DNA of 64,000 bases from positions 1 to 64,000 of the forward strand of contig DASWDU010000025.1 of assembly GCA_036395115.1 (NCBI GenBank). The letters are read 5' to 3'. The translations under genes and the position numbers were made by a program. Under the pieces are notes generated by a model. That model was not told the origin of the DNA. It saw only the letters and a list, made by a program, of their open reading frames with translations, and searched no databases. Each line of letters begins with the position of its first letter. The stretch's first letter is position 1. Below are positions 4,823-51,392 of the stretch, one piece after another. This stretch comes from Thermoplasmata archaeon (GTDB lineage: Archaea; Thermoplasmatota; Thermoplasmata; RBG-16-68-12).

Positions 4823-4927
4823 GGGCCCACGACCGGTGGTGCGGTCGATCAAGACGCGTACCTGCGCCGGACGATCGTCGACGCGGTGGGTTCTGGGCCT
4901 CGACCAGTCCGACGCCCACTCGGTCCA
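4823..4927 (+). other. Degenerate tRNA-Ala-like sequence (pseudo-tRNA or interrupted tRNA)
   Basis: The 3' end CCCACTCGGTCCACTC (4915-4930) is identical over 16 bases to the real tRNA-Ala 3' end plus its flank (3339-3354). The T-stem 5' side GTGGGTTC (4886-4893) is also identical, but 21 bases stand where the real T-loop has 4. Upstream, GGGCCCA (4823-4829) pairs with TCGGTCC at six of seven positions including G3:U70. A D-arm-like GACC/GGTC hairpin and a CGATC/GATCG stem with an oversized 22-base loop follow. Base 8 is not T and the D-loop is unusual. It is either a decayed copy or a tRNA with two insertions. Confidence 0.4.
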
Positions 4928-29956: not shown

Positions 29957-30748
29957 TCAACCCGTCACGTTCAGCCAGATGATTTCCCCGGAGAAGAAAC
30001 CGCTCGAGGCGCCGCTGCCGTACGCGCCGTTGAAGATGAGGTTCGCTGGGATCGCATATTCGTTTCCCTGCGGTCCGGCGCGGGGCTGGTACACCGGGAT
30101 GCTGCCCGGGTTCGAGGAGAAGTCCGCCGACGAGCCGGTGTCGCTGTTGTACATCGCGGCCTGAACTTGACCGGAGAACGTCCATACGGTCGTTGGGTTC
30201 AGAGGCTCTCCCCAGATCTCGAAGAAATTTCCGAGCGTCGGTTGGGCCGAGACCGTCTGGGGCAGCTCCACATGGATGACTCCGGATCCGTCGTGGGTGT
30301 GGAGCCAGTGAATCTGGCCCACGGCACAATAATACTTCGGATTCGTGAAGCCGGGTCGGTTGAGATAGCCGATGTCGGCACTTTGCGTCCCATCGTATGG
30401 CAACGGCTGCTGGACGCCGTTGTGGTTGATCACCAAGAGCGGGTGATAGTGGACGACCGTGCCCTCCAGGCCGCACGCCGAGACGATGTTGCTCCCGGAC
30501 GGCTGGGAGATCAGGTAGTAGCCGCCGACGCCTCCCACGACGACCAGGGCCAGGATCGCGACCTGATACTTCCGGAGGCGGATCGGCCGCGCGCCTTTCT
30601 TCGGGGCAACGCGGCGGCCCTCCTGCTTCAGTTCCTCCCGCAGCCGTGGCATGTCCGGGTGGCGAGGATGGGTGTCGCCCAGGTGGCGGATCAAGTTCTC
30701 GGGTTTCACGGCGACAGTGCAGATGGGACAGTGATCCATCTTCTGCAT
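29957..30748 (-). CDS. Zinc finger, membrane helix and His-rich outer domain protein
   Basis: 263 residues. A C2H2-type finger at the N-terminus has C7, C10, H22 and H27. A basic region and one membrane helix (about 61-80, YQVAILALVVVGGVGGYYLI) follow, then an outer domain. The outer domain has HYHPLLVINHNG and WLHTHDGSGVIHVELP, matching an uncharacterised His-rich extracytoplasmic domain seen in several archaea and bacteria; histidine spacing suggests metal binding. Cytoplasmic finger plus outer His-rich sensor suggests signalling or metal handling, not shown. It is downstream of PAN on the same strand. Confidence 0.7.
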   Translation of the reverse strand: MQKMDHCPICTVAVKPENLIRHLGDTHPRHPDMPRLREELKQEGRRVAPKKGARPIRLRKYQVAILALVVVGGVGGYYLISQPSGSNIVSACGLEGTVVHYHPLLVINHNGVQQPLPYDGTQSADIGYLNRPGFTNPKYYCAVGQIHWLHTHDGSGVIHVELPQTVSAQPTLGNFFEIWGEPLNPTTVWTFSGQVQAAMYNSDTGSSADFSSNPGSIPVYQPRAGPQGNEYAIPANLIFNGAYGSGASSGFFSGEIIWLNVTG

Positions 30749-33415: not shown

Positions 33416-33898
33416 TTAGTTCTGCCGGGCGGCCTGGAACGTCCAAGACAGGTCCGGGAGGGTGCTCGTGACGGTCTCCCGGAACCAGTACACGACGGGC
33501 ACTCCGTCCGCGGGGAGGGTCGCGCTGATTCCGACGTTTGTGAAGGTGCACGACCCGGAGGCTTCGACGCCGGTCATCAGGGCATAGCCGCCGTACGTGG
33601 CGGACTTCACGGCCAAGGCGAACCCGCGGCTGGAGAGGTCGGCACAGGTGTCCGAGACCGTGACGACGATGAAGACGCGGGTCGTGTCCGTGTGATACGA
33701 GCTTCGCGCCGTGATGTTGAAGTAGTACGTCCCGCCGGGGGTGACTTGGGACGCGAACCCGGAGGGTGTGAGGGTGATTTGGGCGACGGTGAACGTCCGT
33801 GGAGGGGACGTCGCCCCGAGCAACACCGCCGCAGCCACGGACGACAGTGCGGTCGCCGTCACCACCAGGGCGACGATCCACGCCGTGCGCCTATCCAT
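33416..33898 (-). CDS. Secreted or membrane-anchored beta-rich protein, last gene of the surface cluster
   Basis: 160 residues from MDRRTAWIVALVV. A signal anchor spans about 7-28, ending AAAVLLGA, the same boundary style as the anchored proteins at 49424 and 50844. The outer part is beta-rich with two cysteines (DTCADLSS and GSCTFTNVG) that could form a disulfide. The segment VTPGGTYYFNITARSS resembles Ig-like or carboxypeptidase-like sandwiches. The start overlaps the end of the giant repeat protein gene by eight bases, so both are on one mRNA. Confidence 0.7.
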   Translation of the reverse strand: MDRRTAWIVALVVTATALSSVAAAVLLGATSPPRTFTVAQITLTPSGFASQVTPGGTYYFNITARSSYHTDTTRVFIVVTVSDTCADLSSRGFALAVKSATYGGYALMTGVEASGSCTFTNVGISATLPADGVPVVYWFRETVTSTLPDLSWTFQAARQN

Positions 33899-36800
33899 GC
33901 TCACGGCACTCCTCGGTGAACCGATGCCCGCAGACCGGGCACGTCACCCGCTTGCGATGGATCCGGCGGATGAGAAGGGCTCCCACAAAGCCCAAAGCCG
34001 ACAGGGATGCTTGGAAGACCGGATCCTGTTGGAGGAGCAGGAGGAAGGGACCGAGCGGGGTGCCGCCCGACGGGAACGCCCAGTTCGCGTTGTTGCCGTT
34101 GTCCGTCGCATTGAAGGCTTGCATCCCGGGACCCGTCGCACTGCTGTGGTCGACCGCGACCCACTGGGCGATCCCTGTCACGCCGGAGACGTCCACCGTC
34201 CACGTCCCGCTGGACGTGAGGACCAGGCGCGCGGTCGACGAAACGCCTGAGAGGACCCCTCCGGGGGTCAGGGTCCATGTGATCCCGGCCGTCACGCGGA
34301 TCGTCACGTTCGCGGTACCGACGAGGGTGACGTTCAGGGTGGTCAGGCTCGCGGTGAAGTCCTTCTCCCCGCCGACGACTTGGACGTTCGGCCAGACTCC
34401 CCCCTGCACGGATTGCGTTGCGGCGGACGGCAAGATCAGCGTCCCCGCTCCGCTGTTCGTGTTGCTCGACGTGTCGACGATGTTCCCGAGCACGGTCACG
34501 TTGCCGGCATCGAAGTTCACGGAGCCAGTCCCCGAGATCGTCAGGTTCCCGTTGACGAAGACGGGGAATCCGTCGAGGTCCAGCGTGCCCGCGCTGATCG
34601 TCACGGCGCAAGCGAGGAGGAACGAGGCCATCGTCACGGTGCCTCCGCTCAGGTTGAACCCGCAGAACTGCTGACCCGTGGCAATCTTGACCGTCTTGCC
34701 GGAACCGGTCATCGTCACGGTGCCCGTTGCCGGTGTGAACGTCGAGCCCGCGCCAGACGTGTCCCAGTCGCCGGAAACCGTCCATGAACCGTTCGTGAGG
34801 GTGATTGTGCCCGAGGTCCCGCCGGTCATCCCGACGTTGGAAACGGACACGGCGGATGCGTTCGCCATCAAGACGCCGGCGTTTCCGATCGTCAGCGCGC
34901 CTCCGGTGAGGGAGAGGTTGGACGTCGCGAGGGTCGTGGTCCCGCTGCCTCCTTGTACGGTGAGCGTTCCCGCCCACTTCAGCCCGTTCGTGGCCGTGGT
35001 GAACGTCACGGTGTTGGACCCGCCGTTGAACGTGACGTTGTTGAACTCATTGACCGATAGGTTCGATCCGGCGAAGGTCATCGTCTGGGACGACGACGCG
35101 TTGAAGACGACCGTCCCGCTGCCTGCGCCCCAGGATGCCGACGTGGAGGCGTTGGCCCACGAACCTGAAACCGTCCACGTCTCCGATCCGAACGCGAAAT
35201 AGCTCGACGCCGACGACACGCTCACGTTGCCCGTGACCGTCGCGTTGCCCGAGGTCGAGGTCACCGCCCCGCCGGACAGGGTCACGCTCGACGTGGACAA
35301 GGCGAAGGTGGACTTCGCGAAGGTCCCGCCGGAGACCGTCAACGACGCCGACACCGTGATGTTCGAGGCCTCCGTGGCCGTGCCCGCCGTGACCGTGAGG
35401 TTGTAGAAGGACTGGGTCATAGCGATCGTCGCGGCCGCCCCGAAGCTCACGGTGCTCGTGCCGGCCACGAAGGTCGCATTGGATGCGGTCACCGTCCAGT
35501 TGCCGTTCACGGAGATCGTCACGGAGTTCGCCTCGAGCCGGCCGTACGTGCCGAGCGTGACGGCACCCGCCGTGACGTTGTAGTACGGGTTGGCCCCCGT
35601 CGACAGGTCGGTCGCTCCGGTCGCCCCGCCCGTCGAATTCTGGACCGTCAGGGTGCCTCCGATCCGGAGGGCGTTCCCGTCGGACGTGAACGTGACCCCG
35701 CCGGCCACGCTCGAATCGAACGTGACCGCGCTGCCGAACTCGATCGCGGACATCACGCCCCACGTCATCGTCTGCGAGGCGGCGGAACGGAACGTAATCG
35801 GCGCGGAGAACGACCAAGAAGCTGACGAAGAAAGGTCGGTCCAGGATCCGGAAACGGTCCAAGAGCCGCCCGACGACGAGGTGATGTACGCCGTCGCCGC
35901 CGCGAGGTTGATGTCGCCGGTGACCGCGACGGCGGACGAGCCTGCCGCCAAAGCGCCGTTGGCCGCGACCGTCAACGTCGATGTGGCGAGCGCAAGGTTC
36001 GATGTGGCGAGGGTCGTCACGGCGCTGCCGCCTTGGACCGTGATCGCTCCCGCGTTGAGGCCTCGGCTGCTCATCGTGAACACGACCGCGTTCGAGCCGC
36101 TGTCGAACACGACGGCGGAAAACTCGTTCCCGGACAGGTTCGACCCGGCGAAGGTCATCGTCTGCGACGACGCCGAATTGAACGTCACCGGGGCCGTCCC
36201 GGCGGACCATGAGGCGCTCGTCGAGGCGTTCGTCCACGAGCCGCTGAACGTCCATGGGCCGCTCCCGAAGGCGATGTACGCCGCGGATGCGGAGACGTTC
36301 ACGTTGCCCGCGACACTTCCCTTGGAGGCACCGGACATCGAGATGTTCGCGCTGCCCGACAGGGTCAGGGCTCCGCCGACCGTGAAGCCGCTGGCGGCCG
36401 TCGCGCCGATCGTAATCGACCCGCCAGAGTGCGTCACGCTCCCCGACACCGCGAAATCGAAGGTCCCGATGGAGATCGTCCCGATCGTCGAGCCCGTCGT
36501 GATGAGAGACGCCATGGCGGCGTTCACGTTCACGGTGGCCGTGCCGGAACCGCTGTTGTTGTCGAAGTGAACGGCGATCGAAGACGTCGGCACGGGGCAG
36601 CCGAACGCCCCGCCCGAGGACGACGCCCAGTGGTTCACGTCGCTCCAGTTCCCGGTCCCGAGGATCCAGAACTCGTTCGCGCCGCACGGGGCCGAGACGG
36701 TGACGACGAAGCCGTCGTTGCCGCCTAGGGTCGTGAAGACGACCTGCCCCGAGCCGTCGACCGTGCCGACCGCGAACTGGGAGCCGTTCTTCAGGACGCT

Positions 36801-39800
36801 CCAGTGGTTCGAGGCAGTGTTCCCGCCAATCGTGAGCGTGATCGTGTCCGTCGTCTTGGTGTCGGTGTGGCTCCACGCGAAGGTGCCGTCGAACGTCCAC
36901 GCGGTGAAGGCGCCGATCGTGATGAGGGCCGTGGCATCGTCGTCGGTGACGGTGAAGTTCTGCACGTTCACGGAGCCGTCCGCGAGGGTCCCGGTGGCGT
37001 TCACGGTGAGGGCGTTGAACGTCACGCTGAACCCGGTCTTCGTGAGGGTCGCCGCCGAGCTCACCGTCAGACTGGTGCCCGTGACGTCCGAGCCGAGCGT
37101 CGTAGTGCCGGAGAAGGTGAGGGTCGCGAACGTCTGGCCGGACGCCACGGTCAGGGTCTTGCCGGATCCGGTGAACGTGACCGTCGAGGTGGTGGAGGTC
37201 CAGGAGCCCGCCGAAGACGTGTTCCAGCTCCCGCCGATCAAGACGGTGGCCGAGGCGAACGTGATCGTCGCGGCGCCGGCTGATGTCAAGTTCCCATTGA
37301 ACGTGACCGTGGACGAGGTCAGCGTGAGGGTCGAGGACCACGTCAGGCTGCTCGTGAAGGTCGTCGAGATCCCGCTGTTGACGGTCACGTTGTACGCCGT
37401 CTGCGGGATGTTCACGGATCCGCCCGAGGTGCCGATGACGATCGTCGAGGTCCCGGCCGTGAAGGTCGCCCCGCCGGCGGAGGTGTCCAGCGACTTGAGG
37501 GTGATCATCGAGGAGTTGGCGGTGAGCGTGCCTGTTCCGGTCACCGTGAGGCTGGACGTCCCCGTGATGTCATGGTAGGGGTTCGGCCCGGTGCCCAGGG
37601 AACCGGAGATGCTGAACGTCGCGCTCACGTCGATGGCGCTGGACTGGGTGAGAGTCCCCGAGACCGTGAGATTGTAGAAACCATTGCCGCTGTTCAGGAT
37701 CTTCACCGTCTTGGTCGCACCGCTCAGCGTGATCGTGCTCATCCCCTTCGCGAAGGCGGAGCCCGCGCCGGACGTGTCCCAGTTGCCCGAGACCGTCCAC
37801 GAGCCGCTCGTCAGCGTGATCGTGCCGGACGAACCGCCGGTCATCGTGACGTTGGACACGGACACCGCGGACGCGTTCGCCGTCAACACGCCGAGGTTGC
37901 CGATGGTCAGGGCGCCGCCCGTGAGGCCGAGGTTCGCGGTCGCGAGCACCGTCGTCGATCCGCTCCCCGGAACGGTCAGGGTGCCGGCCCACCGGAGGGC
38001 GTTCGTGCTCATCGTGAAGGTAATCGTGCCGCTGCCGGCGGCCGACTGGAGGACGACGTTGTTGAACTCCGCGACGCTGAGGTTCGACCCCGCGAACGTC
38101 ATCGTCGCGCTCGTCGAGTCGTTGAACGTCACGGTCCCGGATCCGGCGCTCCAGGACCCCGATGTCGAGGCGTTCGTCCATGTCCCGCTGACGGTCCACG
38201 ACTCCGAACCGAAGGCGATGTACGAGGCCGCGGCGGAGACGTCTACGTTGCCCGAGATCGTGACGGTGCCGGACGTGCTGAGAAGGGCGCCGCCGGCGAA
38301 CGTCAGGTTCCCGTTCACCGTGAGGGCGTTCGTCCCTTTCGTCAGGGATCCTGCGTTGAGGTTCAGGGCCGACGTCGTGAGCTGCGACGCTTGGGAAATC
38401 GTGCCCGTCACGGTCAAGATGGCGAAGCTCTGGCTCGCAAGAAGCTTGACCGTCCTTGAGGCGCCGGACAGGGTGACCGTCGACGTGCCCGAGGTGAACG
38501 TCGTCCCGGACCCGCTCGTGTCCCAGTTGCCGGAGACGGTCCATGACCCGGACGTGAGATTGATCGTGCCGCTCGTCGCCGACGTCATCGTGACGTCGGA
38601 GACGGTCACGGTGGACGCGTTCGCGGTGAGGGCCCCGCCCGTCGAGACGGTTAGCGCGCCGCTGCCACTGAGGGCCAAGCTCGCTGTGCTCAGCGTCCCG
38701 GAGATCGTTGTGGAGTCGCTCACGTCGATGGCGGTTGACATGGTGATGGTCCCGCTGATCGTAAGGTCGTAGAAACCGTTCGAGGAATTCCGAATCGCGA
38801 CCGTCTTGGAGGTCCCGCTGAGCGTCACCGTGGAAATCCCTTTCGTGAACGTCGTCCCGGTCCCGCTCGTGTCCCAGTTTCCCGAGACGGTCCACGAGCC
38901 GCTCGTCAGCGTGATCGTGCCGCTCGTCGCCGACGTCATCGTGACGTTGGACACGGACACCGTGGACGCGTTCGCGGTGAGGGTCCCGCCCGTCGAGATG
39001 GCGAGCGTGCCGTTCCCGGAGAGCGCCTGGCTTGCGGTTGCCAGCGTGCCGGAGATCGTCGTGGAGTTGCTGACGTCGATAGCGGTGCCCATGGTGATGG
39101 TCCCGCTGACCACCAAGGCGTAGAACCCGTTGGAGGAGTTCCGGATCGCGAGGGTCTTGCCCGAACCGTTCATGGTGGCCGTGCTCGTGCCGGCGCCCAG
39201 CGTAGTGCCGGAGGCACTGGTGTCCCAGTTGCCGGTGACCGTGACCGAGGAAGAACCGAGGGCCAAGGTCCCGTTGGCAGCCATCGAGACGTTCTCGATG
39301 GTCACCGGATTGTTGTTCGTCGAGTAGTTGTAGAACTGACCCGAGCCGAAGGTGTATGTTTTCCCAGCGGCCTGCACGGAAATCGTCGAGGTCCCGAACG
39401 TGAGCGTCCCCGCGCTGCTGTTCCAGTCGCCGCTAACGTCGATCGTCCCGGAGGTCATGCTGAGTGTGGTGCCGGAGCCGATCGTCACGTTCGCGAGGGT
39501 CAGGGTGGAGGAACTGCCGGCTAGCCCGCCGGAGCCCGCCAGGGTCAGGTCGGCCCCGCCGTTGACGTCCAGGCCCGCGGTCGTGAGCGTGCCGAGGCCC
39601 GACGTGGCGACGGTGTGGCTCACGTCGATGGCGGTGGACATCGTTAGGGTCCCGCTGATCGTGAGGTTGTAGAAACCGTTGCTCGAGTTTCGGATTGCGA
39701 CCGTCTTGGCGGTCCCGGTGAGCGTCACCGTGCTCGTCCCCTTCGTGAACGTCGTGCCCGCTCCAGAAGTGTTCCAATCGCCGGAGACCGTCCACGAGCC

Positions 39801-42800
39801 GGCGGTGAGCGTGATCGTGCCGGACGTCGCACTCGTCATGGTCACGTCGCCGACGGTGACCGCACTCGCGTTCGCAGTGACGGTCCCGCCAGTCTGCACC
39901 GTGAGGCTGGCGCCGCCTGAAACCGCCAGCCCGCCCGTGCTCAGCATCCCGCTCACCGATACCGCGTTGCTCGCGTCGATGCCGGTGGTCTGTGTGACCG
40001 TGCCCGAGACCGTCAGGTTGTAGAACCCGTTGCTGACGTTGCGAGTCGCGATGGTCTTCGAGGCGCCGGTCATCGTAATCGTCGAGGTGCCCTTCGTGAA
40101 CGTGGTGCCGGACCCGCTCGTGTCCCAGTTGCCCGAGGCGGTCCACGAGCCGCTCGTCAGCGTGATCGTGCCGCTCGTCGCCGACGTCATCGTGACGTTG
40201 GACACGGACACCGTGGACGCGTTCGCGGTGAGGGCCCCGCCCGTCGAGATGGCGAGCGTGCCGTTCCCGGAGAGCGCCTGGCTTGCGGTTGCGAGCGTCC
40301 CAGAGATCGTCGTGGAGTTGCTGACGTCGATCGCCGTGGACATCGTGACGGAGCCCGTGATGGTCAGGCTGTAGAACCCGTTGCTGGCGTCGTGGATTGC
40401 GACCGTCCTAGAGGCGCCGCTCAAGGTGATCGTGGATGTGCCCTTCGTGAACGTCGTCCCGGTCCCGCTCGTGTCCCAGTTTCCCGAGACGGTCCACGAG
40501 CCGCTCGTCAGCGTGATCGTGCCGCTCGTCGTCGACGTCATCGTCACACTGCCGACGGTGACCGACGAGGCGTTCGCCGTGAATGTGCCGCCCGTGGCGA
40601 TCGTCAGGTCTCCCCCGCCAGAGACCGTCTTGCTCGACGTGTCGAAGGTGTTCGCTATGGTGAACGTGCCGGTCAGACTCATGCTGTTGTCAAGGACCAG
40701 GTCGGAGAGTGTCGAGATCGTCCCGGAGATGGTGACATCGTAGAGGTGGTGGTTCGTGCCGCCGATCCGCATTTGGATCGTCTTCGAGGTGCCGGACAGC
40801 GTGACCCGGCCCGTGCCTTCGGTCCACGTCGAGCTCGAGCCGGACGTGTCCCAGTTGCCCGAGGCGGAAATCGTCCCGCTCGTGAACGAGATCGAGTTCG
40901 TCCCAGCGTCGTTCATCGCCACGTCTGTGGCGGTGATCGCGGACGTGCTCGCCGTCAGCGTGCCTCCCCCCGACACGGTGAGGTTGGCGCCACCCGTGAT
41001 GTCGTTTCCGGAAGTCGTCAGAGCTCCTGTGATCGACAGGGCATTGCTCACGTCGACGGCGCTACTTTGCGTGATCGTCCCGGAGACGATCAGGTTGTAG
41101 AATCCGTTGCTCGCGTTCCGGATCCTGAGCGTCTTGGCGGTCCCGGCCAAGGTGACCGTGCTCGTGCCCCTCGTGAAACTCGACGACGATCCGGAAGTGT
41201 CCCAGTTGCCGGACGCGGAGATGTTCCCGCTCGTTAGGGAAATCGCATCCGCCGAAGCATCGTTCATCGTGACATTGCCCACAGTGATGGACGATGTGGT
41301 GCCGGTCAGAACGCCGCCGCTCGACACCGTCAGGTTGGCGCCGCCGGTGATGTTGTTGCCCGACGTGGTCAGCGTGCCGGTAATCGCCAGCACAGTAATC
41401 ACGTCGATCGCGCTCAGCTGGCTGACCGTCCCAGAGATCGTGAGCTGATAGAACCCGTGGGCGGAATCGGCCGTCTTCACGGTCTCGCCAGTCCCGCTCA
41501 GCGTGACGGCGCTCGTGCTCCGGTTGAACGTGCCTCCGGAGGAATCCCAGATACCCGGGACCGTGAGGGACACCGCACCGCTCATCGTCAACGTGCCGCC
41601 CGCGCTCACGACGAGGTCTCCGTTCGTCCCGGTAGATGTCGTCGTGCCGACGTACACGTCCTCGCCGGTCATCGTGAGCGTGTTGCCGAGAGTGAGCGTG
41701 TTGGAGACGTTCAGAGCGCTGTTCAGGGTATACGTGCCGGAGACCGACAGGTTGTAGAAGCCCTGCGCCCCGTTCAGCTTGAGCGTCTTGGCGGAACCCG
41801 TCATGGTGACCGCGCTCGCGCCCATCGCGAGCGTCGAACCCGCTCCCGAGGTGTCCCAGTTCCCGGACACCGTCCATGATCCGCTCGTCAGCGTGATCGT
41901 GCCGGACGTGCCGCCCGTCATCGTCACGTTGGCGACGGTCGCCGTCGCCGCGTTCGCCGTGACGATTCCGCCATTGTTCACCGTGAGGTTGCCCGCCCCG
42001 AATGTGAGGCTTCCAGCCCCGCTGACGGTAATCGCCCCGGTCACAGAGACGTTTCCGTTGCTCGTGTTGATCGATCCGCTGGAGACGCTGAAGGTCGTCC
42101 CGGACCCGACGGTCAGGGCGCCGATCGTGATGGAGGACGTGCTGCCCGCGATTCCACCGGTCCCACTCAACGTGGTTGCCGCCCCGCCGGTGATGCTGTA
42201 GCCGGACGTCGTCAGGGTGCCCGAACCCGAAGTCTGCAGGCCATTGGACACGTCGATGGCGGTCGCCTGCGTGATCGTCCCGGTGATCGTCAGATTGTAG
42301 AAACCCGCCGTCCCGGTGATCGCCACGGTCTTGGCGGTTCCCGACAGGTTCACCGTGCTCGTCCCCTTGTTGAACGTACCGGTGCTCGAGTCCCAGTTCC
42401 CCGAGACCGTGAGTGAAACGGAGCCGCTCATCGTGAGCGTGCCACCCGTGTTGACGCCGACGTCGCCGTTGGCCCCGATGGATGTCGTCCCGCCGACGTA
42501 CATGTCCTTCCCGTTCATCGACAGGGCATTGGACAGCGTGACGAGATGAGCCACGTTGAGCGCGGTGTTCAGGGTGTACGAGCCGGTAATCGTCAGGTCG
42601 TAGAACGCGGCGGTGCCGTTGATCGCGAGGGTCTTGGACGTGCCCGAGAGGGTCACGATGCTCGTGCCCTTGGCAAAGGTGCCGGCCGAGGAGTCCCAGG
42701 AGCCAGAGGCCGAGATGCTGCCGGAGGTCATGCTCCATGAGGTCCCGCTGCCGATCGTCACGTCGTTGACCGTCATCGAAGACGTGGTGCCGGTGATTCC

Positions 42801-45800
42801 GCCAGTACCCGACAGGGACACGTTGGCTCCGCCGGTAAGGCCGAAGCCCGACGTTGTCAACGCGCCGGAGCCTGAGGTGGACAGTGCGTTGCTCACGTCG
42901 AAGGCGCTGAGTTGCGTGATCGTGCCCGAGATTGCGAGGTCGTAAAAGCCGTTCGATGAGTTCAACATCGTCAGGGTCTTGGAGGCCCCAGACAGGGTGA
43001 CGGTGCTCGTGCCCTTCGTGAACGTCGAACTCGCGCCGGACGTGTCCCAGTCGCCCGAGACAGCCCAGGAGCCGGAGGTGAGCGTGATCGTCCCGGAGGT
43101 GCCTCCCGTCATCGTTACGTTAGAGACGGCTGCCGCGGATGCGTTCGCCGTGAGGATTCCGCCGTTGCCGACCGAGACAGCCCCGCCGGTCAGCCCGAGA
43201 TTCGCGGTAGCGAGGGCGCTCGTGCCGGAGAGGTCACTGACCGTCGAAGTGCCGCCCCAGACGAGGGATCTCGAGGCCATGGTGAACGTCTGCGCGGCTG
43301 CGGAGCTCGACGTGAAGGTCACGTTGTTGAACTCATTGACGCCGAGGTTCGACCCTCCGAACGTCATGATGACGTTCGACGCGGAAGAGAATAGGACGGT
43401 CCCGGTCCCGGCGCTCCACGAAGCCGATGTCGAGTTGTTCGTCCAGGCGCCTTTGAACTCCCAGCCGGCCGTGCCCCCGAACGAGAAGTAGCCGGTCGCG
43501 TTGATCGTCACATCGTTGGCGATCGTCTTCGTGCCCGACGCTCCGGCGGTGATCCCGCCCGACAGCGCGGCGAGCGTGGCGACGGTCAGCATCTGCGTGC
43601 CCGTCGCGAGGATCGCTCCGCCGTTGACGGTCAGACTACCCCCGACGTCAAGGAGTGTGTTCGTCGTCACCGTGCCGGCCGCGGAGATCGTCAGGTTGTT
43701 GAAGTTGTTCGCCGAATTGCGGATTGCGATGGTCGTGCCGGACCCGCTCATCGTGATTGTCGACGTGCCCTTCGTGAACGTCGTCCCGGACCCGCTCGTG
43801 TCCCAGTTTCCCGAGACCGACCATGATGCCGTTCCCGAAATCGTGATTGTCCCGCTCGTCGCCGAGGTCATCGTCACGTTGCCGACCGTGACCGTGCTGG
43901 AGTTTGCGGTCAGCGTGCCACCCGTGGAGATCGTCAGCGAGCCTCCGCCGGACAGCGCGTAGTTGTTAGCCGCTGAAGTGTCGAATGTCCCCGAGATGCT
44001 CGTGGCCGTGCTCACGTCGATGGCCGACGCCGCCGTGATCGTCCCGGAGACCGTCAGAGATGCGAAGCCGTTGGACGCGTTCAGGATCTTCACGGTCTTT
44101 GTCGCGCCCGATAGCGTGACGGTGCTCGTGCCCTTGGCAAACGTCGAGCCCGCACCGCTTGTGTCCCAACTGCCCGAGACGGTCCACGATCCCGACGTGA
44201 GGGTGATCGTGCCGCTCGTCGCCGAGGTCATCGTGAGGTTGCCGATGCTCACCGTGCTCGCGGTTGCGGTGAGGGTCCCCGCCGTGGCAATCGTCAGGTT
44301 CCCGCCACCGGTCACGCTCGTGTCGTTCGTGGTGAAGCTGTTCGCGATGGTGAGACTCCCAGTCAGGTTCACGCCGGTCCCCGTGGACTTCATCGTGATG
44401 TCCGAGAGCGTGCTGACTGTGCCGGAGACGGTCAGCGCGTAGAACTCGTTGTTGGTTCCTGAGACGAGCATCTTCACGGTCTTGCTTGCGCCGCTCAGTG
44501 TGACCGAACCGGACGTGCCGCGGTCCCAGGTGCTGGACGAGCCCGAGGTGTCCCAGTTGCCCGACGCCGTAATCGAACCGGTCGTGAGCGATATCGTGTT
44601 CGCGGACGCTCCGGTCATCGTGACGTCGCTGACGGTGATGGCGGCGCTGGAGCCGGCCAGGGTCCCGCCGCCGGATACGGTGAGGGTCGCGCCGCCGGTC
44701 ACGTTGTTCCCGGAGGTCGTGAGGGTGCCGGTGATCGAGATCGCGGAGCTGACATCGATGGCCGAGTTTTGCGTAATCGTCCCGGAAATCGTCAGGCTCG
44801 CGAACCCGTTGCTTGCGTTGCGGATCGCAACCGTCTTGCTCGTGCCGCTCATGACGATCGTGCTGGTTCCCTTGTTGAATGCCGCCGTCGAGTTGCTGCT
44901 GTCCCAGTTGCCGGAGACCGTCGATGTGCCAGAGCCCAACGTCAGCGTGCCGTGCGATCCGACCGTCACACCGCCCGTGGTGAAGGTCAGGTTGTTCGTC
45001 GCGTCCGTCAGGATTGTCGTCCCGCTCGCGTTCGAGTCCTGGATCGTGAGCGCCCCGCTGATCTTGAGCGCGTTTGTGACGAGGGTCCATGTTGCACCCG
45101 TCGCGCTGTTGGGGTCGAAGGTCAGGCTGGGGAACGCCACGCCGCCGACGTAGTTCGTGGAATTTCCCTGGTTGAAGTTGTTGCTGCCCGTGGCCGTGAA
45201 CATGACCGTCCCGCTGGCGGTCGCGTCCCAGGAGGCCGAGGTTGAGTTGTTCGTCCAACTCGCGTTGGAGAAAGTCCAGGTCGCCCCACCGAAGACGAAA
45301 TAGCCTGTGAAGTTCACCGTGACGCTGCTCGATATGGTCTTCGTGCCGGAGGCTCCGGCCGTGATCCCACCACTGAGTGCGGCGAGGGTCGTAATCGTCG
45401 TGGTGAACGTGCTGGTTGCCCACACGCCGGTCACTGTGGTCGTTCCGTCGACGGACGCCGACCCGTTGGATGTGATCGTCACTCCGGGGTCCGCGGTGAA
45501 GTTGTTCGCATTGCCTCCGACCGTGTTGAATGTCCCGCCCGTCGTTGCGGCCTCCAAGAGCGACGTTCCCTTGTTGAAGACGGCGCTCGTGCCGCTACTG
45601 TCGAATGTCTTGAACTTTATAGTCGAGGCGTTCGCGGTCAGCGTGCCACGGGTCCCGAGGATAATCCCGGCGGTCGCCGTGATCGCGAGGTTCGAGCCGG
45701 AGGTGTCCAGGACCGTGTTGCCGCTCGCGCTCGCCGTCGAGTTCAAGATAGTCAGGTCGCCGCCCATGTTCAGGGGGCGAGTCGCCATCGTGTAGGTCAT

Positions 45801-48623
45801 CCCGCCGACGACGTTGCTGTCGAACGTGACCGCCCCGGTGAACTCCGGCGGCCCGCAAACCGTGCCGCAGAAGGTCATCGTTCTGGCGACGCCGTTCTTG
45901 AAGGTGATCGGCGCGGCGAAGGACCAGTTGCTGGTGCTGGTGCTCGCGTTGGTCCAGGTGCCATTGTTGACAGTCCACGCACCCCCGGCGGAGGACGTGA
46001 TCCCCGAGTCGGGGTCAGTCGCTCCGATGGACACGTTGCCGGTCTCGGACACCGTCGCCGTCCCGGTCTTGAGCACCGCCCCGATCTCGGCGGCGCCCGG
46101 GTTGTCGATGGTCAGGCCCGCCGCGAAGGTCAGGTTCTTGTTGTTCACGCTGTCGTCGAGCGTTATTTTCGCGGACGTCCCCGTGTTTGAGTTCCGGATG
46201 GTCACGAGCCCGCCAATCGCGAGCGTCCCCGTGCTGCTGCCCACGGTGTACACGACCGCCGCGTTCGTGTTCGGGTCGAACGTCACGCCCCCACGGAATT
46301 CCTGGCTGCTCGTATAGCTGGACGAATCGCCGAATGCCATCGTTGCCGAACCGCTCGAGTTGAATGTGATGCCCGCCTGGAAGTTCCAGGAGCCCGACGT
46401 GGAGGGCGTGGACTGGTTCCACTTGCCGACTGTCCACGTGCCCGCTCCGCTCGTCACATAGGCATTCGCCGCCGCCACCTCGAAGTCTCCCGAGAGGGAG
46501 ACGGTGGCCGTCCCGCCCTTGAGAACGCCAAGCGTGCCCAGCTTGATGTTCGACGTGCCGACCGCAGCAGTGCCAGTCACCGTGCTCAAGTTGTTCACGC
46601 TGTCATCCAGGATGACGTTGCCCGTGGCGCTTGCGACGGTGTTGTTGATGAGCAGGGTGCCGTCCCACTTGATCGCGTTCGTGACCATGGTGTACGTAAC
46701 GGTCGTGGACGCCGCGGCCGTCGAGTCGAGGGTCAGATTGTGAAATTCCGTGAAGTTGGCTGTCCCGCCAAACTTCGTGGAGGCGCAGTTCGCGTTCGAC
46801 TTGATCGTCACCGTCCCCGTGCCTTGGTTCCAACTCGCGGAAGTGCTGGAGTTGGAGTAGCATCCGGTGAACGAATGGGCGGTGCTCGATCCCCACTTGA
46901 TGAAGGAGGATGCGCTGTTGACGACGAAACCGCCACCTGCGCCGGTGACCTGAATCGTCCCGCCATTCGTGGCATCGATGGAGCCTCCGTTCAGATGGAT
47001 GGCATTCGCCGAGGTGGACGACGTGCTGAAGGTCCCGCTCGCGCTCGCCGCCCAGTTCACCGTACCGGCGTTGATGCAGACCGTGTAGGTGACTGCGCCG
47101 CACGATGCTGTGTTCGTCCCCGTGCTTGCCGTCAGGTTGTTCGTGCTGCTAAGTTGGATCGTCGCGCTCGAATTGTCCACCGTAAGGGCGTTGGTGTTGG
47201 CGGCCGTGTCGACCGTAATCGTGCAAGACGCGGTGCAGGAGAGAGAGTCAAAGGTCACGGCATTGGAGGTAGTCGGTATGGCGCAGCCGGGGAATCCGCC
47301 GGTGCTCTCGGACCATCCGGTCAGGGGATCGGTGGTCGTGTTCCAGGTGCCGGTCCCGCCAACCCAGAAGCGCGAGGATGACGCGCCACAAGACGCGTCG
47401 GTGATCGTGAACACCGCCAGGGCGACATCGTCCAAGGCGGCGGTGTAGCCCATCACCTGGTTCGTGGTCCCCGCCGCCGGTCCGCGGTCCGCCATCGAGC
47501 CCTTCCCCCCGTCATCGAAAAGCTGCATGTTCGTACAGGTCCCGTTCCCGCTACAGTTCGACGAGGGAAGGGTCCCCAAACCGGAGTATAGCATCATGGC
47601 GGACACCGAGGAGTATCCTCCGTATTGCTCGGTGACGGACGGGTTCGTGGCATCTTCATTAACGGTGTCTGCGTCCACTATCCGAATGTCACCGGCTGCC
47701 GTCCAAGTCACGGCGACAAACTCGTAGTCGTCTGTCGTCGCGCTGTCCAGGTCCACGCACACCGACACCGCCCCCGTAGGAAGACCTGTGCCAAGGAACC
47801 AGATCTCGGCGCTACCGGGCTCGCCCGCCGTGTCCGTGGCCCTTATGATGCGTTTCAGGGAGACCCCGCCTGACGCGCAGGCGGCACCGCTCGCCCCGAC
47901 GTTGTACTTCACAGCGAGGACATGGTCCGTGGAGGTTGTCTCGTCCGCGATGAGCACCGCGACGCCCCTGGGCGTCCCTACCGGGGTGTGCGTCCAAGTT
48001 GCGGGGTCTGTGGTGCCTGTTCGCTCCAGTTCGGACGAAGCGTCGAAAACGACCGTAGCCTGCGCACGTCCCGTGAAGAAGTCGAGCAAATCGATGACCG
48101 CGCTCCTCAATCCGGAGACGACGGCGTCAACGATCCTGTTCGCCAGCATCGCGAAGCCGTCGTCGCCACGCGGAGGAGCGATCCACGCGGGGCCCGGGTC
48201 CGTGACCCTGCCGTCCCAGAATGTGTAGCTTGCGGTCGCGTGGATGTCGGTACGGTTGACCGTCCAGCGAGCCACTGGGTCGTAGCCTCCACGAGGCGTG
48301 AAGATGTATTGCATCGCTTCCTTCCAGTCTGACGCGCTCATCTTGCCGCCGAGAAGTTGGAGCTTCCCGTTCGAGAACGAAATTTTGCCACGCAGATCGG
48401 CGGGCATTCCTGTGATTGGGTCCTCCACCTGCGACTCAATCAGCAGGACCACGAGGCTCAGGAGGAGTCCGAGACTGAGCAGGAGCGCCAGGCCGATGTA
48501 GAGGTGGGGTTGGCTCACCCGGCGCGATTCGACGATCGTCCGGTGCCGGAACTTCGCAGCGACGGTCGGCAACACGGTGAGGCCCGACAGGTTGTGGAAC
48601 ACCGAACTCGGGCGCGTCGTCAT
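33891..48623 (-). CDS. Giant 4910-residue repeat surface protein (predicted beta-helix) with C-terminal zinc knuckle
   Basis: One uninterrupted ORF of 14.7 kb. An N-terminal membrane helix (41-62) follows a basic cytoplasmic tail. The outer part starts with a unique region (65-410), then a cap-like module with FWVGGTGTWN near residue 420. Thousands of Ser/Thr/Gly/Asn-rich residues follow in units with W[DN][TS]S, KGTSTVTLSG and FYNLTISGTIT; I count about twenty W[DN][TS]S copies. A second cap-like module (FWILGTGNWSDVNHW) lies near 3980. The end has an apolar helix, a basic stretch, then C4895, C4898, C4906 and H4909, a probable cytoplasmic zinc knuckle. Numerous sequons suggest heavy glycosylation. 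Likely an adhesin or fibre. Confidence 0.85.
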   Translation of the reverse strand: MTTRPSSVFHNLSGLTVLPTVAAKFRHRTIVESRRVSQPHLYIGLALLLSLGLLLSLVVLLIESQVEDPITGMPADLRGKISFSNGKLQLLGGKMSASDWKEAMQYIFTPRGGYDPVARWTVNRTDIHATASYTFWDGRVTDPGPAWIAPPRGDDGFAMLANRIVDAVVSGLRSAVIDLLDFFTGRAQATVVFDASSELERTGTTDPATWTHTPVGTPRGVAVLIADETTSTDHVLAVKYNVGASGAACASGGVSLKRIIRATDTAGEPGSAEIWFLGTGLPTGAVSVCVDLDSATTDDYEFVAVTWTAAGDIRIVDADTVNEDATNPSVTEQYGGYSSVSAMMLYSGLGTLPSSNCSGNGTCTNMQLFDDGGKGSMADRGPAAGTTNQVMGYTAALDDVALAVFTITDASCGASSSRFWVGGTGTWNTTTDPLTGWSESTGGFPGCAIPTTSNAVTFDSLSCTASCTITVDTAANTNALTVDNSSATIQLSSTNNLTASTGTNTASCGAVTYTVCINAGTVNWAASASGTFSTSSTSANAIHLNGGSIDATNGGTIQVTGAGGGFVVNSASSFIKWGSSTAHSFTGCYSNSSTSASWNQGTGTVTIKSNANCASTKFGGTANFTEFHNLTLDSTAAASTTVTYTMVTNAIKWDGTLLINNTVASATGNVILDDSVNNLSTVTGTAAVGTSNIKLGTLGVLKGGTATVSLSGDFEVAAANAYVTSGAGTWTVGKWNQSTPSTSGSWNFQAGITFNSSGSATMAFGDSSSYTSSQEFRGGVTFDPNTNAAVVYTVGSSTGTLAIGGLVTIRNSNTGTSAKITLDDSVNNKNLTFAAGLTIDNPGAAEIGAVLKTGTATVSETGNVSIGATDPDSGITSSAGGAWTVNNGTWTNASTSTSNWSFAAPITFKNGVARTMTFCGTVCGPPEFTGAVTFDSNVVGGMTYTMATRPLNMGGDLTILNSTASASGNTVLDTSGSNLAITATAGIILGTRGTLTANASTIKFKTFDSSGTSAVFNKGTSLLEAATTGGTFNTVGGNANNFTADPGVTITSNGSASVDGTTTVTGVWATSTFTTTITTLAALSGGITAGASGTKTISSSVTVNFTGYFVFGGATWTFSNASWTNNSTSASWDATASGTVMFTATGSNNFNQGNSTNYVGGVAFPSLTFDPNSATGATWTLVTNALKISGALTIQDSNASGTTILTDATNNLTFTTGGVTVGSHGTLTLGSGTSTVSGNWDSSNSTAAFNKGTSTIVMSGTSKTVAIRNASNGFASLTISGTITQNSAIDVSSAISITGTLTTSGNNVTGGATLTVSGGGTLAGSSAAITVSDVTMTGASANTISLTTGSITASGNWDTSGSSSTWDRGTSGSVTLSGASKTVKMLVSGTNNEFYALTVSGTVSTLSDITMKSTGTGVNLTGSLTIANSFTTNDTSVTGGGNLTIATAGTLTATASTVSIGNLTMTSATSGTITLTSGSWTVSGSWDTSGAGSTFAKGTSTVTLSGATKTVKILNASNGFASLTVSGTITAASAIDVSTATSISGTFDTSAANNYALSGGGSLTISTGGTLTANSSTVTVGNVTMTSATSGTITISGTASWSVSGNWDTSGSGTTFTKGTSTITMSGSGTTIAIRNSANNFNNLTISAAGTVTTNTLLDVGGSLTVNGGAILATGTQMLTVATLAALSGGITAGASGTKTIANDVTINATGYFSFGGTAGWEFKGAWTNNSTSASWSAGTGTVLFSSASNVIMTFGGSNLGVNEFNNVTFTSSSAAAQTFTMASRSLVWGGTSTVSDLSGTSALATANLGLTGGAVSVGNGGILTANASAAAVSNVTMTGGTSGTITLTSGSWAVSGDWDTSGASSTFTKGTSTVTLSGASKTLTMLNSSNGFYDLAISGTITQLSAFDVSNALSTSGSGALTTSGFGLTGGANVSLSGTGGITGTTSSMTVNDVTIGSGTSWSMTSGSISASGSWDSSAGTFAKGTSIVTLSGTSKTLAINGTAAFYDLTITGSYTLNTALNVAHLVTLSNALSMNGKDMYVGGTTSIGANGDVGVNTGGTLTMSGSVSLTVSGNWDSSTGTFNKGTSTVNLSGTAKTVAITGTAGFYNLTITGTITQATAIDVSNGLQTSGSGTLTTSGYSITGGAATTLSGTGGIAGSTSSITIGALTVGSGTTFSVSSGSINTSNGNVSVTGAITVSGAGSLTFGAGNLTVNNGGIVTANAATATVANVTMTGGTSGTITLTSGSWTVSGNWDTSGAGSTLAMGASAVTMTGSAKTLKLNGAQGFYNLSVSGTYTLNSALNVSNTLTLGNTLTMTGEDVYVGTTTSTGTNGDLVVSAGGTLTMSGAVSLTVPGIWDSSGGTFNRSTSAVTLSGTGETVKTADSAHGFYQLTISGTVSQLSAIDVITVLAITGTLTTSGNNITGGANLTVSSGGVLTGTTSSITVGNVTMNDASADAISLTSGNISASGNWDTSGSSSSFTRGTSTVTLAGTAKTLRIRNASNGFYNLIVSGTITQSSAVDVSNALSITGALTTSGNDITGGANLTVSGGGTLTASTSAITATDVAMNDAGTNSISFTSGTISASGNWDTSGSSSTWTEGTGRVTLSGTSKTIQMRIGGTNHHLYDVTISGTISTLSDLVLDNSMSLTGTFTIANTFDTSSKTVSGGGDLTIATGGTFTANASSVTVGSVTMTSTTSGTITLTSGSWTVSGNWDTSGTGTTFTKGTSTITLSGASRTVAIHDASNGFYSLTITGSVTMSTAIDVSNSTTISGTLATASQALSGNGTLAISTGGALTANASTVSVSNVTMTSATSGTITLTSGSWTASGNWDTSGSGTTFTKGTSTITMTGASKTIATRNVSNGFYNLTVSGTVTQTTGIDASNAVSVSGMLSTGGLAVSGGASLTVQTGGTVTANASAVTVGDVTMTSATSGTITLTAGSWTVSGDWNTSGAGTTFTKGTSTVTLTGTAKTVAIRNSSNGFYNLTISGTLTMSTAIDVSHTVATSGLGTLTTAGLDVNGGADLTLAGSGGLAGSSSTLTLANVTIGSGTTLSMTSGTIDVSGDWNSSAGTLTFGTSTISVQAAGKTYTFGSGQFYNYSTNNNPVTIENVSMAANGTLALGSSSVTVTGNWDTSASGTTLGAGTSTATMNGSGKTLAIRNSSNGFYALVVSGTITMGTAIDVSNSTTISGTLATASQALSGNGTLAISTGGTLTANASTVSVSNVTMTSATSGTITLTSGSWTVSGNWDTSGTGTTFTKGISTVTLSGTSKTVAIRNSSNGFYDLTISGTITMSTAIDVSDSTTISGTLSTASLALSGSGALTVSTGGALTANASTVTVSDVTMTSATSGTINLTSGSWTVSGNWDTSGSGTTFTSGTSTVTLSGASRTVKLLASQSFAILTVTGTISQASQLTTSALNLNAGSLTKGTNALTVNGNLTFAGGALLSTSGTVTISGNVDVSAAASYIAFGSESWTVSGTWTNASTSGSWSAGSGTVTFNDSTSATMTFAGSNLSVAEFNNVVLQSAAGSGTITFTMSTNALRWAGTLTVPGSGSTTVLATANLGLTGGALTIGNLGVLTANASAVSVSNVTMTGGSSGTITLTSGSWTVSGNWDTSGAGSAFAKGMSTITLSGATKTVKILNSGNGFYNLTVSGTLTQSSAIDVSATFSISGSLGTGPNPYHDITGTSSLTVTGTGTLTANSSMITLKSLDTSAGGATFTAGTSTIVIGTSGGSVNIPQTAYNVTVNSGISTTFTSSLTWSSTLTLTSSTVTFNGNLTSAGAATITFASATVLIGGSWNTSSAGSWTSTTSTVTFTGSGKTLTVASGQTFATLTFSGTTTLGSDVTGTSLTVSSAATLTKTGFSVTFNALTVNATGTLADGSVNVQNFTVTDDDATALITIGAFTAWTFDGTFAWSHTDTKTTDTITLTIGGNTASNHWSVLKNGSQFAVGTVDGSGQVVFTTLGGNDGFVVTVSAPCGANEFWILGTGNWSDVNHWASSSGGAFGCPVPTSSIAVHFDNNSGSGTATVNVNAAMASLITTGSTIGTISIGTFDFAVSGSVTHSGGSITIGATAASGFTVGGALTLSGSANISMSGASKGSVAGNVNVSASAAYIAFGSGPWTFSGSWTNASTSASWSAGTAPVTFNSASSQTMTFAGSNLSGNEFSAVVFDSGSNAVVFTMSSRGLNAGAITVQGGSAVTTLATSNLALATSTLTVAANGALAAGSSAVAVTGDINLAAATAYITSSSGGSWTVSGSWTDLSSSASWSFSAPITFRSAASQTMTWGVMSAIEFGSAVTFDSSVAGGVTFTSDGNALRIGGTLTVQNSTGGATGATDLSTGANPYYNVTAGAVTLGTYGRLEANSVTISVNGNWTVTASNATFVAGTSTVSFGAAATIAMTQSFYNLTVTAGTATEASNITVSASLTVSGGTFAKSTFALSTSSVTLSGGAVTSTSGNATVTGNVSVSSASSYFAFGSETWTVSGSWANASTSASWGAGSGTVVFNASSSQTMTFAGSNLSVNEFNNVTFNGGSNTVTFTTATNGLKWAGTLTVQGGSGTTTLATSNLSLTGGALTIGNAGVLMANASAVSVSNVGMTGGTSGTITLTNGSWTVSGDWDTSGAGSTFTPATGTVTMTGSGKTVKIATGQQFCGFNLSGGTVTMASFLLACAVTISAGTLDLDGFPVFVNGNLTISGTGSVNFDAGNVTVLGNIVDTSSNTNSGAGTLILPSAATQSVQGGVWPNVQVVGGEKDFTASLTTLNVTLVGTANVTIRVTAGITWTLTPGGVLSGVSSTARLVLTSSGTWTVDVSGVTGIAQWVAVDHSSATGPGMQAFNATDNGNNANWAFPSGGTPLGPFLLLLQQDPVFQASLSALGFVGALLIRRIHRKRVTCPVCGHRFTEECREHG
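38890..39079 (-). repeat. Near-identical internal repeat of the giant gene, copy 1
   Basis: This 190-base stretch matches 40141-40330 with only a few mismatches, at an offset of exactly 1251 bases (417 codons). The neighbouring 38841-38940 also matches 40442-40540. The copies are far closer than the protein's other repeats, so they reflect recent duplication or gene conversion. Confidence 0.75.
40141..40330 (-). repeat. Near-identical internal repeat of the giant gene, copy 2
   Basis: Partner of 38890-39079 at a 1251-base spacing that keeps the reading frame. Confidence 0.75.
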
Positions 48624-49423: not shown

Positions 49424-50008
49424 TCACGTTCCGTCGAACTGCGCGGTCACGGTGATCTGTGTACCGCTTGCACCCGCCGCCAGGTTCGCGTTGATGACCG
49501 CGAACTCGAGGTACCATTTGGGCGTGGTGCTTCCCGCCGTGACAGTCTGCGTGTTCAGCGACGTGTACGTGCAGACGCCGCCCGCGTAGGTTCCCGTCAG
49601 GGTCGTCGGGTACGTGGAACCGGCGTCATTCGACTCCTTGACGATGAGGTTCGACGCACAATCCGTTGGGAATCCGCCAGGGCTCGCCGTGATCGTCACG
49701 ATCGGGTGGACGCCCGAGCGATCCGTGGAGTAGGAGTTCTGCGCGATATCGATCCGGAACGGGTGCTGAGTTTGGGACAGAATCTCACCGTACAGAATCT
49801 CAGTCGGGACGTTCACGACGCTCGGGGTCATCTCCGCGATGTGCGTCGTCTGCTGAGCCGACGGACCGAGCAGGACCGCTGCGGCGATTCCGCCGAGCAC
49901 GAGCATTCCGACGAGCGGGACGACCGGGACCCTTCCCCACGCTTTCGCGCGGAGGAGCCGCCGGCCGACGCTCCCAGTATCGAAAATCGTTGTCCGAACT
50001 TCTGTCAT
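49424..50008 (-). CDS. Membrane-anchored beta-rich surface protein, paralogue A
   Basis: 194 residues. The N-terminal cytoplasmic tail (MTEVRTTIFDTGSVGRRLLR) aligns with the tail of the 50844 protein. One membrane helix (about 28-48, ending AAAVLLGP) is followed by an outer domain with YGEILSQTQHPFRIDI and a late KWYLEFAVINANL. The latter matches KWYFQFHYAVSTL and TWYVQFHYAVSSL of the other two paralogues. Two cysteines could form a disulfide. Likely a surface subunit; fold resembles an Ig-type sandwich by pattern only. Confidence 0.7.
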   Translation of the reverse strand: MTEVRTTIFDTGSVGRRLLRAKAWGRVPVVPLVGMLVLGGIAAAVLLGPSAQQTTHIAEMTPSVVNVPTEILYGEILSQTQHPFRIDIAQNSYSTDRSGVHPIVTITASPGGFPTDCASNLIVKESNDAGSTYPTTLTGTYAGGVCTYTSLNTQTVTAGSTTPKWYLEFAVINANLAAGASGTQITVTAQFDGT

Positions 50009-50195: not shown

Positions 50196-50702
50196 TCACA
50201 GGTCCGCGATCTCCTCCGGAACCGCTTGGAGTTCCCCGGCACCTTCCACCGATTCTCCGGGGATTTCGACGTCCCTCGGATTCTCCGGGACTTCCCCCGG
50301 TTCCTCGACGTGCCCACACGCGGGGCACACTGCGGGCGTGGCGTGGATTTCGGGAGTCGGCACGACCTTCCCGCGATCCAAGAACGCGACGTGCGTCTTC
50401 AGGTTCTTCGCGGCTTCGCCGCACCGAGAGCACTTGGACGGCTCGACCGTGACCGACAAGGCTTCGCAACGCCACCCCTTCGCGATCTCGTTCGTGAACT
50501 TCACGCGCCCGCGGAACTCGCGCGTGAGGGCTCGACGGACGGCTTTCGAGAGGCCGGGATCCCGTTCGAGGGACTTCGCAACCGCGAAGAGCGGCGTCTG
50601 CGCGCCGAAGAAGTCGCGCGCCATGTTCGCCTGGTCGCGTGCCCAGTCTTTCAGATGACGGGGCTTCACCCGGAAGTTCCTCTTGACCGGGCGCCGCTTC
50701 AT
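50196..50702 (-). CDS. Double CxxC zinc-ribbon protein of the surface cluster
   Basis: 168 residues, cytoplasmic. A basic helical N-terminus (MKRRPVKRNFRVKPRHLKDW) leads to a core and then CSRCGEAAKNLKTHVAF and, 35 residues on, CPACGHVEEPGE; together they can bind one zinc. An acidic tail closes the protein. The start overlaps the stop of the 41-codon ORF (ATGA). It may bind nucleic acid or the zinc-knuckle tails of neighbours. Family not recognised. Confidence 0.65.
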   Translation of the reverse strand: MKRRPVKRNFRVKPRHLKDWARDQANMARDFFGAQTPLFAVAKSLERDPGLSKAVRRALTREFRGRVKFTNEIAKGWRCEALSVTVEPSKCSRCGEAAKNLKTHVAFLDRGKVVPTPEIHATPAVCPACGHVEEPGEVPENPRDVEIPGESVEGAGELQAVPEEIADL

Positions 50703-50843: not shown

Positions 50844-51392
50844 CTACCCGGTCGCGAACTGAGCGGACCATGTAACCACCGAGGCCGGCAGGGTCGAGAC
50901 CGCGTAGTGGAACTGGAAGTACCACTTCGGCGCGGAGGCGCCCGTGGCCCCGGCCGCGACGCTCTGCTGGAACGAGGTCCCGAAGTCGTACGTGAAGACG
51001 GACCCGCTCTGCGTCACGGTCGGGTTCGTGAAGGAGTAAGAGATCCCGTCGAGGGAGGCGATCAGCACGACGTCCGTGCCCGCGGTCAAGTTCGTGGCGG
51101 AGATCAGAGGCCGCATGTTCTCGGCGATCTTGTACGTGTTCGTCCCAACCGTCACGTTGAACCAGAACTGTTTGCCGCCCAGGATGTCCCCGTAGAGCGG
51201 GTTCACCTCCAGCCCGCTAATCTGCGGGATCGCCTCGGCGATGTTTTGATTCTGGTTCTGCCCCGGAGGCCCGACGAGGACGGCAGCCGCCGCGAAGCCC
51301 GCCAAGACGATCGCCACGAGCGCCACCACCGGAATCTTGTGAAAGACCTTCTTCTGGAGAAGTCGACGTGCGAGGCTCGCGTAGTCGAACAC
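50844..51392 (-). CDS. Membrane-anchored beta-rich surface protein, paralogue B
   Basis: 182 residues from a GTG (VFDYASLARRLLQKK). One helix (about 20-42, PVVALVAIVLAGFAAAAVLVG) leads to an outer domain with IPQISGLEVNPLYGDILGG, YDFGTSFQQSVAAGATGASAP and HYAVSTLPASVV. The outer domain is about three-quarters identical to the end of the 51713 protein. Alignment with paralogue A implies about seven more residues at the N-terminus (TKTETR), but no standard start codon encodes them. An ACG start or a short product are both possible. Confidence 0.72.
   Translation of the reverse strand: MFDYASLARRLLQKKVFHKIPVVALVAIVLAGFAAAAVLVGPPGQNQNQNIAEAIPQISGLEVNPLYGDILGGKQFWFNVTVGTNTYKIAENMRPLISATNLTAGTDVVLIASLDGISYSFTNPTVTQSGSVFTYDFGTSFQQSVAAGATGASAPKWYFQFHYAVSTLPASVVTWSAQFATG
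50881..50990 (-). repeat. Paralogue duplication tract, copy 1
   Basis: A 110-base stretch nearly identical (about six mismatches) to 51750-51859. It encodes the C-terminal part of the beta-rich outer domain in both genes. The DNA similarity exceeds that of flanking sequence, so it suggests a recent duplication or gene conversion. Confidence 0.75.

Follow-up and report, generated by a model that had tools for sequence, protein, structure and literature searches.

Genes and features of the locus

The window analysed here is a stretch of 64,000 nt from an archaeon of the class Thermoplasmata (contig DASWDU010000025.1, positions 1 to 64,000). We observed in it a gene for a giant surface protein and several genes that bear on its interpretation; the genes listed below are called by their first coordinate.

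29957..30748, minus strand: predicted membrane protein in which a C2H2-like finger at the N-terminus is followed by a basic stretch, a membrane helix and an outer domain (from sequence and hydropathy)
33416..33904, minus strand: small exported protein starting at the ATG that overlaps the stop of the giant gene, with weak similarity to 49424
33891..48623, minus strand: giant surface protein gene, 4,910 aa; open frame with genome-like codon usage, its stop overlapping the next start
49424..50008, minus strand: small exported protein, paralogue of 50844 (35% identity, E 1e-27)
50196..50702, minus strand: soluble protein of 168 aa that has two CxxC pairs; of 61 genomes searched, it was found in this one only
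50844..51392, minus strand: small exported protein that shares 62% identity with the outer part of 51713
51713..53521, minus strand: protein with TPR and two zinc-ribbon modules (Pfam TPR and DZR), a predicted membrane helix and a small outer domain

By tblastn of the window genes against the stretches of relatives we saw a conserved gene order: PAN, 32609, a surface gene, an HTH gene (53526), Hsp20, CDC48 and mevalonate kinase. In the genus, the family and the order, this surface position is usually occupied by a KaiC-TPR-zinc-ribbon protein that has two membrane helices, one behind its zinc part and one C-terminal. Three proteins of 1,900-2,300 aa encoded at the PAN-CDC48 locus of relatives (L084:3023-8680, L087:5529-12503 and L088:4745-11617) start with a KaiC ATPase/TPR/zinc-ribbon part in the cytoplasm; a first membrane helix leads to a long ectodomain, behind which another membrane helix follows. 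They share with the giant the locus, a large ectodomain and a putative cytoplasmic zinc ribbon, and their ectodomain is flanked by membrane helices on both sides. They differ from it in that the zinc ribbon is N-terminal and accompanied by the KaiC ATPase, the C-terminus is an IPEFE-type helix without zinc, and the ectodomain is not a solenoid.

In this genome it is 51713 that retains the conserved TPR/zinc module, now in fusion with a small outer domain; homologues of 51713 were found in 43 of 61 relatives, with its N-terminal module as the resident that is conserved at this locus. The remainder of the locus is taken up by the giant gene together with 48830, 49424, 50196 and 50844, and 50196 was not found in 60 relatives. 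Such a cassette, seen in one genome and situated at a surface-protein locus, fits a variable surface island.

Copies of the outer domain of 51713 are present in 50844 and, more distantly, in 49424 and 33416, the 33416 protein being weakly similar to 49424 (BLASTP E 3e-6). The small exported domains of 33416-33904, 49424-50008, 50844-51392 and 51713-53521 (outer part) thus make four related copies within one cassette; a pilin- or TasA-like role for them would be a guess. Gene 29957-30748 adjoins PAN, and its N-terminal part is conserved beside PAN in the relative L084.

The end of the giant gene and its predicted membrane helices

The features of the giant protein, in order from the N-terminus, are as follows.

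48438..48500, minus strand: strongest hydrophobic segment of the protein, an apolar helix at residues 42-62 near the N-terminus that may be an anchor or a signal peptide
34023..45185, minus strand: predicted beta-solenoid ectodomain of 117-residue repeats, core at about residues 1147-4867 (repeat spacing of 117; model of three repeats)
33963..34022, minus strand: putative C-terminal membrane helix, residues 4868-4887 (hydropathy; 20-residue AlphaFold2 helix of low confidence)
33942..33968, minus strand: basic stop-transfer RRIHRKRVT, residues 4886-4894 (five Arg/Lys among seven residues behind the apolar segment)
33894..33941, minus strand: predicted cytoplasmic tail CPVCGHRFTEECREHG, residues 4895-4910, with C4895, C4898, C4906 and H4909 (low-confidence prediction of two bridges and a helix; sub-threshold matches to zinc ribbons and to the Rad50 hook)

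The C-terminus reads ...VFQASLSALGFVGALLI-RRIHRKRVT-CPVCGHRFTEECREHG (full terminal stretch: GPFLLLLQQDPVFQASLSALGFVGALLIRRIHRKRVTCPVCGHRFTEECREHG). The codon-usage score of the last 60 codons is 0.23, with 0.35 for the entire gene; over the same codons the two other sense frames score -0.05 and -0.39 and the antisense frames 0.08 or less. In ATGGATAG the TAG stop shares bases with the start codon (ATG) of the following gene. Given the coding signal up to the last codon and this overlap of stop and start, the giant's end is no artefact of the reading frame. Translation beyond the stop yielded no additional CxxC and no remnant of a second ribbon.

The N-terminal helix is strong (2.85 in a 19-residue Kyte-Doolittle window), and the C-terminal one is modest: its best 17-mer reaches 1.95 and its best 19-mer 1.48 on the same scale. 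Within the protein it ranks second on the octanol scale and third on the approximate biological scale, and no higher because a solenoid stretch, residues 4663-4681, scores similarly. Hydropathy alone is therefore insufficient for this helix; RRIHRKR immediately behind it and the 20-residue helix predicted there add support. An earlier note on this DNA had proposed a C-terminal membrane helix followed by a basic stop-transfer and a Cys/His cluster on the inner side, and hydropathy, the basic stretch and the low-confidence model agree with this proposal, so that the C-terminus is likely to lie inside the cell. The interval that it had assigned to these features, 33891-34000, takes in the tail and the basic stretch and cuts off the first third of the helix, which extends to about 34022.

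The same note placed both ends of the protein inside. For the C-terminus this is the likely orientation; the N-terminal helix at 42-62 could be an anchor or a cleaved signal peptide. In related giants the N-terminus is a bare anchor in some cases and has an AxA-like site behind the helix in others. Loops held by two anchors do occur at this locus in relatives, with a large cytoplasmic KaiC/TPR/zinc part as N-terminus. With predicted helices at 42-62 and 4868-4887 and RRIHRKR behind the latter, the giant would belong to the C-terminal membrane-anchored archaeal surface proteins.

The cysteine/histidine tail

The tail predicted to lie on the inner side of the membrane helix is 16 residues long. 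C4895, C4898, C4906 and H4909 are indeed where they had been reported, with codons at 33939-33941, 33930-33932, 33906-33908 and 33897-33899. The term 'zinc knuckle' used for them is loose, as the spacing is C-x2-C-x7-C-x2-H, whereas a CCHC knuckle has C-x2-C-x4-H-x4-C. The chance of meeting CxxC-x(3-15)-[CH]xx[CH] in a random 25-residue tail is about 3e-6. We found 14 CPxCGxxF coding sites in this genome and none in a reversed control; the CPxCG sites of this genome are genuine zinc motifs. Judging by its motif, the tail of the giant probably binds zinc.

None of the Pfam zinc-ribbon and zinc-finger models scored above cut-off on the tail, the best being PF23451 with 18.2 bits against a cut-off of 27. 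A model of the end built by AlphaFold2 from the single sequence has, after the membrane helix, two short bridges and then a short helix bearing C4906 and H4909; confidence is low (pLDDT of 52-59 for the tail and 41-46 for the helix).

The predicted solenoid ectodomain and giants of the genus

The outer repeat region was predicted with high confidence to be a beta-solenoid, the model of three repeats reaching pLDDT 92 and pTM 0.88. In a Foldseek search of the solenoid against PDB the best matches were beta-helix proteins, none of them significant (best E 0.02). The bacterial beta-helix adhesins Ag43 and TibA are, like the giant, elongated surface beta-solenoids made of repeats; the Foldseek similarity to them is not significant and the giant has no autotransporter barrel. 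A Pfam match of the giant to PF17991, in which no single stretch passes, was judged a composition artefact of the repeats.

The first 308 residues of the giant have no match elsewhere, and residues from about 309 to 470 are a module common to giant frames in nine relatives of the same genus. These same-genus giants are homologous to the giant (E down to 6.9e-9; BLASTP identity of 29-34% over ~3,000 residues). Those readable as a whole have one helix at the N-terminus and a second, C-terminal one around residue 2,360-3,080, e.g. IFPIGILLGVAMFAQRQRWRP. In the three complete ones (G008:C197, G006:C84 and G015:C133) about 1,395 residues follow the C-terminal helix, mostly coiled coil and without CxxC. 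Their N-terminal helix, their repeats, which are of one type with those of the giant and extend over thousands of residues, and their C-terminal membrane helix are features of the giant too; they differ from it in this coiled-coil tail and in their location beside an ADP-forming acyl-CoA synthetase gene.

A search with the coiled-coil tail matched this genome on contig C12 only, with no match in the window. Contig C12 encodes the genome's own coiled-coil giant, with a shorter ectodomain; the giant gene of the window thus comes in addition to it and combines the solenoid type with a different tail.

Giants of 2,800-4,500 aa with a large ectodomain, a C-terminal membrane helix and a mostly coiled-coil, putatively cytoplasmic tail of ~1,395 aa can be read at L072:5807-19294, L074:5886-19202, L076:6083-19459 and L253:4480-12843. 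Beside them lies another coiled-coil gene, which has a similar motif, VKIIQxKAxxLLDREEKLRK, at its end.

Zinc-ribbon surface proteins across the class

Through the search for CPxCGxxF coding sites we reached a separate family of surface proteins, 847-2,126 aa long, composed of a signal peptide, an ectodomain, a membrane helix and zinc ribbons. Of 100 relatives spread over the class, 96 gave a match to its helix-plus-ribbon stretch, this genome among them, the weakest matches spanning the ribbons alone. The earlier note had regarded a zinc-binding tail as a non-standard anchor; these 96 genomes, in which a membrane helix is followed by predicted cytoplasmic zinc ribbons, contradict that view for this lineage. 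In GTDB genomes the stretch was found at 190 loci; we kept 80 of them, all named Thermoplasmata, Methanomassiliicoccales or otherwise Euryarchaeota/Thermoplasmatota. A CxxC no more than 30 residues behind the helix was present in all 47 loci checked (median frame 1,575 aa), and mean column identity in an 11-row alignment of the helix-plus-ribbon family was 76%. The Pfam domains of the family are DZR, zinc ribbon and CARDB, the last above cut-off in the longer member tested. Large surface proteins with zinc-bearing, putatively cytoplasmic tails are thus, as far as sequence can tell, ordinary in Thermoplasmata.

The giant is not a member of this family: it was absent from the search with the family tail, and the search with its own tail found no family member among the loci read. 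Like the giant, the CARDB/zinc-ribbon proteins (PF07705 with PF12773/PF13248; e.g. L176 and L202) have an exported ectodomain, one C-terminal membrane helix and an inner CxxC within 30 residues. Their class-wide tail of ~250-290 aa contains several complete ribbons and a conserved charged segment, whereas the giant has one minimal 16-residue CCCH cluster, in a single genome.

The family tail, with several ribbons and the charged segment REASRQLGR...FEDWLREEEEMRKMGS, can be read at L176:4069-6864, L202:1315-6843 and L254:3684-7784. Three contigs of the assembly (C14, C15 and C32; first bases of L254, L255 and L256) break off within the zinc-ribbon tails of paralogous surface genes, which are nearly identical there, and this makes the copy number of these genes in the assembly uncertain. 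No description of archaeal zinc-ribbon surface proteins was found in the open papers searched, and the literature may still hold one. The family loci closest in sequence come from the soil MAGs 'Euryarchaeota archaeon EA_n' and from RBG_19FT_COMBO_69_17, all of which we take to belong to the GTDB order RBG-16-68-12; the window itself would fall in this order too. This order has been named Ca. Angelarchaeales (PMC9038741); the words 'surface' and 'zinc' are absent from the text of that paper.

Conservation of the tail and alternative explanations

No homologue of the last 166 residues of the giant was found in 200 relatives, 37 genomes of the order, GTDB r220 contigs or IMG/VR. Conservation of the Cys/His pattern, which the earlier note had made a check of its proposal, was not found: the solenoid relatives carry coiled-coil tails, and the C-terminal region is without a homologue in the searched genomes. 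As the tail is absent from all of them, selection on its Cys and His residues cannot be shown.

For this reason one has to take seriously the explanation that the giant, a recently acquired and fast-evolving gene product, ends in an ordinary archaeal C-terminal anchor (a membrane helix with Arg/Lys) to which a functionless leftover of a zinc finger is attached. Within the searched set both the C-terminal region of the giant and 50196 are restricted to this genome, the solenoid relatives with an intact tail have no CxxC, and the L024 surface protein of a relative, whose end is similar, terminates directly after VRRRRRMRTS and has no zinc motif. Against a leftover speak the four putative ligands, all of them retained with the CPxCG signature, the normal codon usage to the end and the lack of any trace of a second ribbon past the stop; on balance we consider a relic rather unlikely.

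Five weak matches to the last 166 residues were read and dismissed, L023, L024 and L025 as parts of other surface proteins and L026 and L027 as unrelated frames; the L023 and L024 surface proteins terminate at a membrane helix followed by Arg, without a zinc motif. A search with the tail only returned mostly zinc sites of unrelated proteins, many of them in one conserved protein of ~750 aa with HypF-like fingers.

The zinc site could instead be shared between molecules, either by two tails or by a tail and a cytoplasmic zinc-ribbon protein, which would cluster the giant rods from inside. The tail resembles the Rad50 zinc hook motif PF04423, the 25-aa tail scoring 16.6 bits and a genome scan giving 13.9 bits, both below the cut-off of 24.3; it is the lowest-E match of that profile within this genome (E 0.13), and the PDB hooks 1l8d and 6zff align to the tail query at positions 5-23 with E of 0.15-0.21. 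Juxtamembrane zinc clasps are established for CD4/CD8-Lck (PMC12198760), and 50196, with its two CxxC pairs, turned up in no searched genome that lacked the tail. Rad50 hook and CD4/CD8-Lck clasp are like the tail in being short CPxC-type motifs able to share zinc between chains; the hook, to which the tail does not belong by sequence, is located on a soluble coiled coil, there is no coiled coil at the tail of the giant, and the clasp is formed by a vertebrate co-receptor/kinase pair. All matches are far under cut-off, other zinc ribbons and C2H2 fingers score as well as the Rad50 hook or better on the tail, and four ligands on one chain are enough for an intramolecular site, so we hold sharing to be improbable. 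A long shot, by analogy, would be an archaeal juxtamembrane zinc clasp that clusters or switches the outer rods from within the cell, its one zinc centre being completed by a pair of tails or by one tail plus 50196, which co-occurs with it.

That the apolar segment is no membrane anchor, the giant being secreted or attached through its N-terminal helix with the Cys/His cluster outside, would suit the moderate hydropathy and the similar score of the solenoid stretch and is very unlikely in view of the RRIHRKR that immediately follows the segment, the extreme C-terminal position of the latter, the predicted 20-residue helix and the C-terminal membrane helices of the comparable surface proteins read.

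Proposed explanation and its meaning

The explanation that we prefer, at a probability of about 0.5, is that of a solenoid surface protein with a C-terminal membrane anchor and a cytoplasmic zinc finger that caps the anchor and docks or self-associates. The giant would be exported via its N-terminal helix, and the C-terminal membrane helix with its basic stop-transfer would hold it at the surface of this soil archaeon. In the cytoplasm, the last 16 residues would fold round one zinc ion, bound by C4895, C4898, C4906 and H4909, into a minimal finger. The gene, its motif, the solenoid model, the synteny and the class-wide precedent of zinc ribbons behind a membrane helix are observed here, and membrane insertion, orientation and zinc binding we infer; as to partner and mechanical role, our guess is that the finger, in capping the anchor, links the long outer rod to a cytoplasmic partner or to itself. 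The same job is probably done by the larger zinc-ribbon tails of the class-wide family and by the KaiC/TPR/zinc module of the usual occupant of the locus. The earlier note had the tail dock to zinc-ribbon proteins of the cluster, for which 50196 and 51713 would be the candidates; the single hint of this is that 50196 and the tail are both missing from 60 relatives.

These observations point to a pattern in Thermoplasmata that has been little described: on their cytoplasmic side, large surface proteins bear zinc ribbons, KaiC ATPases or coiled coils, and outer parts and inner tails are recombined between genes. Of this pattern the single zinc tail of the giant would be a minor case, specific to one genome. 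If such tails recruit partners, the surface layer or adhesins of these archaea would be coupled to the cell interior.
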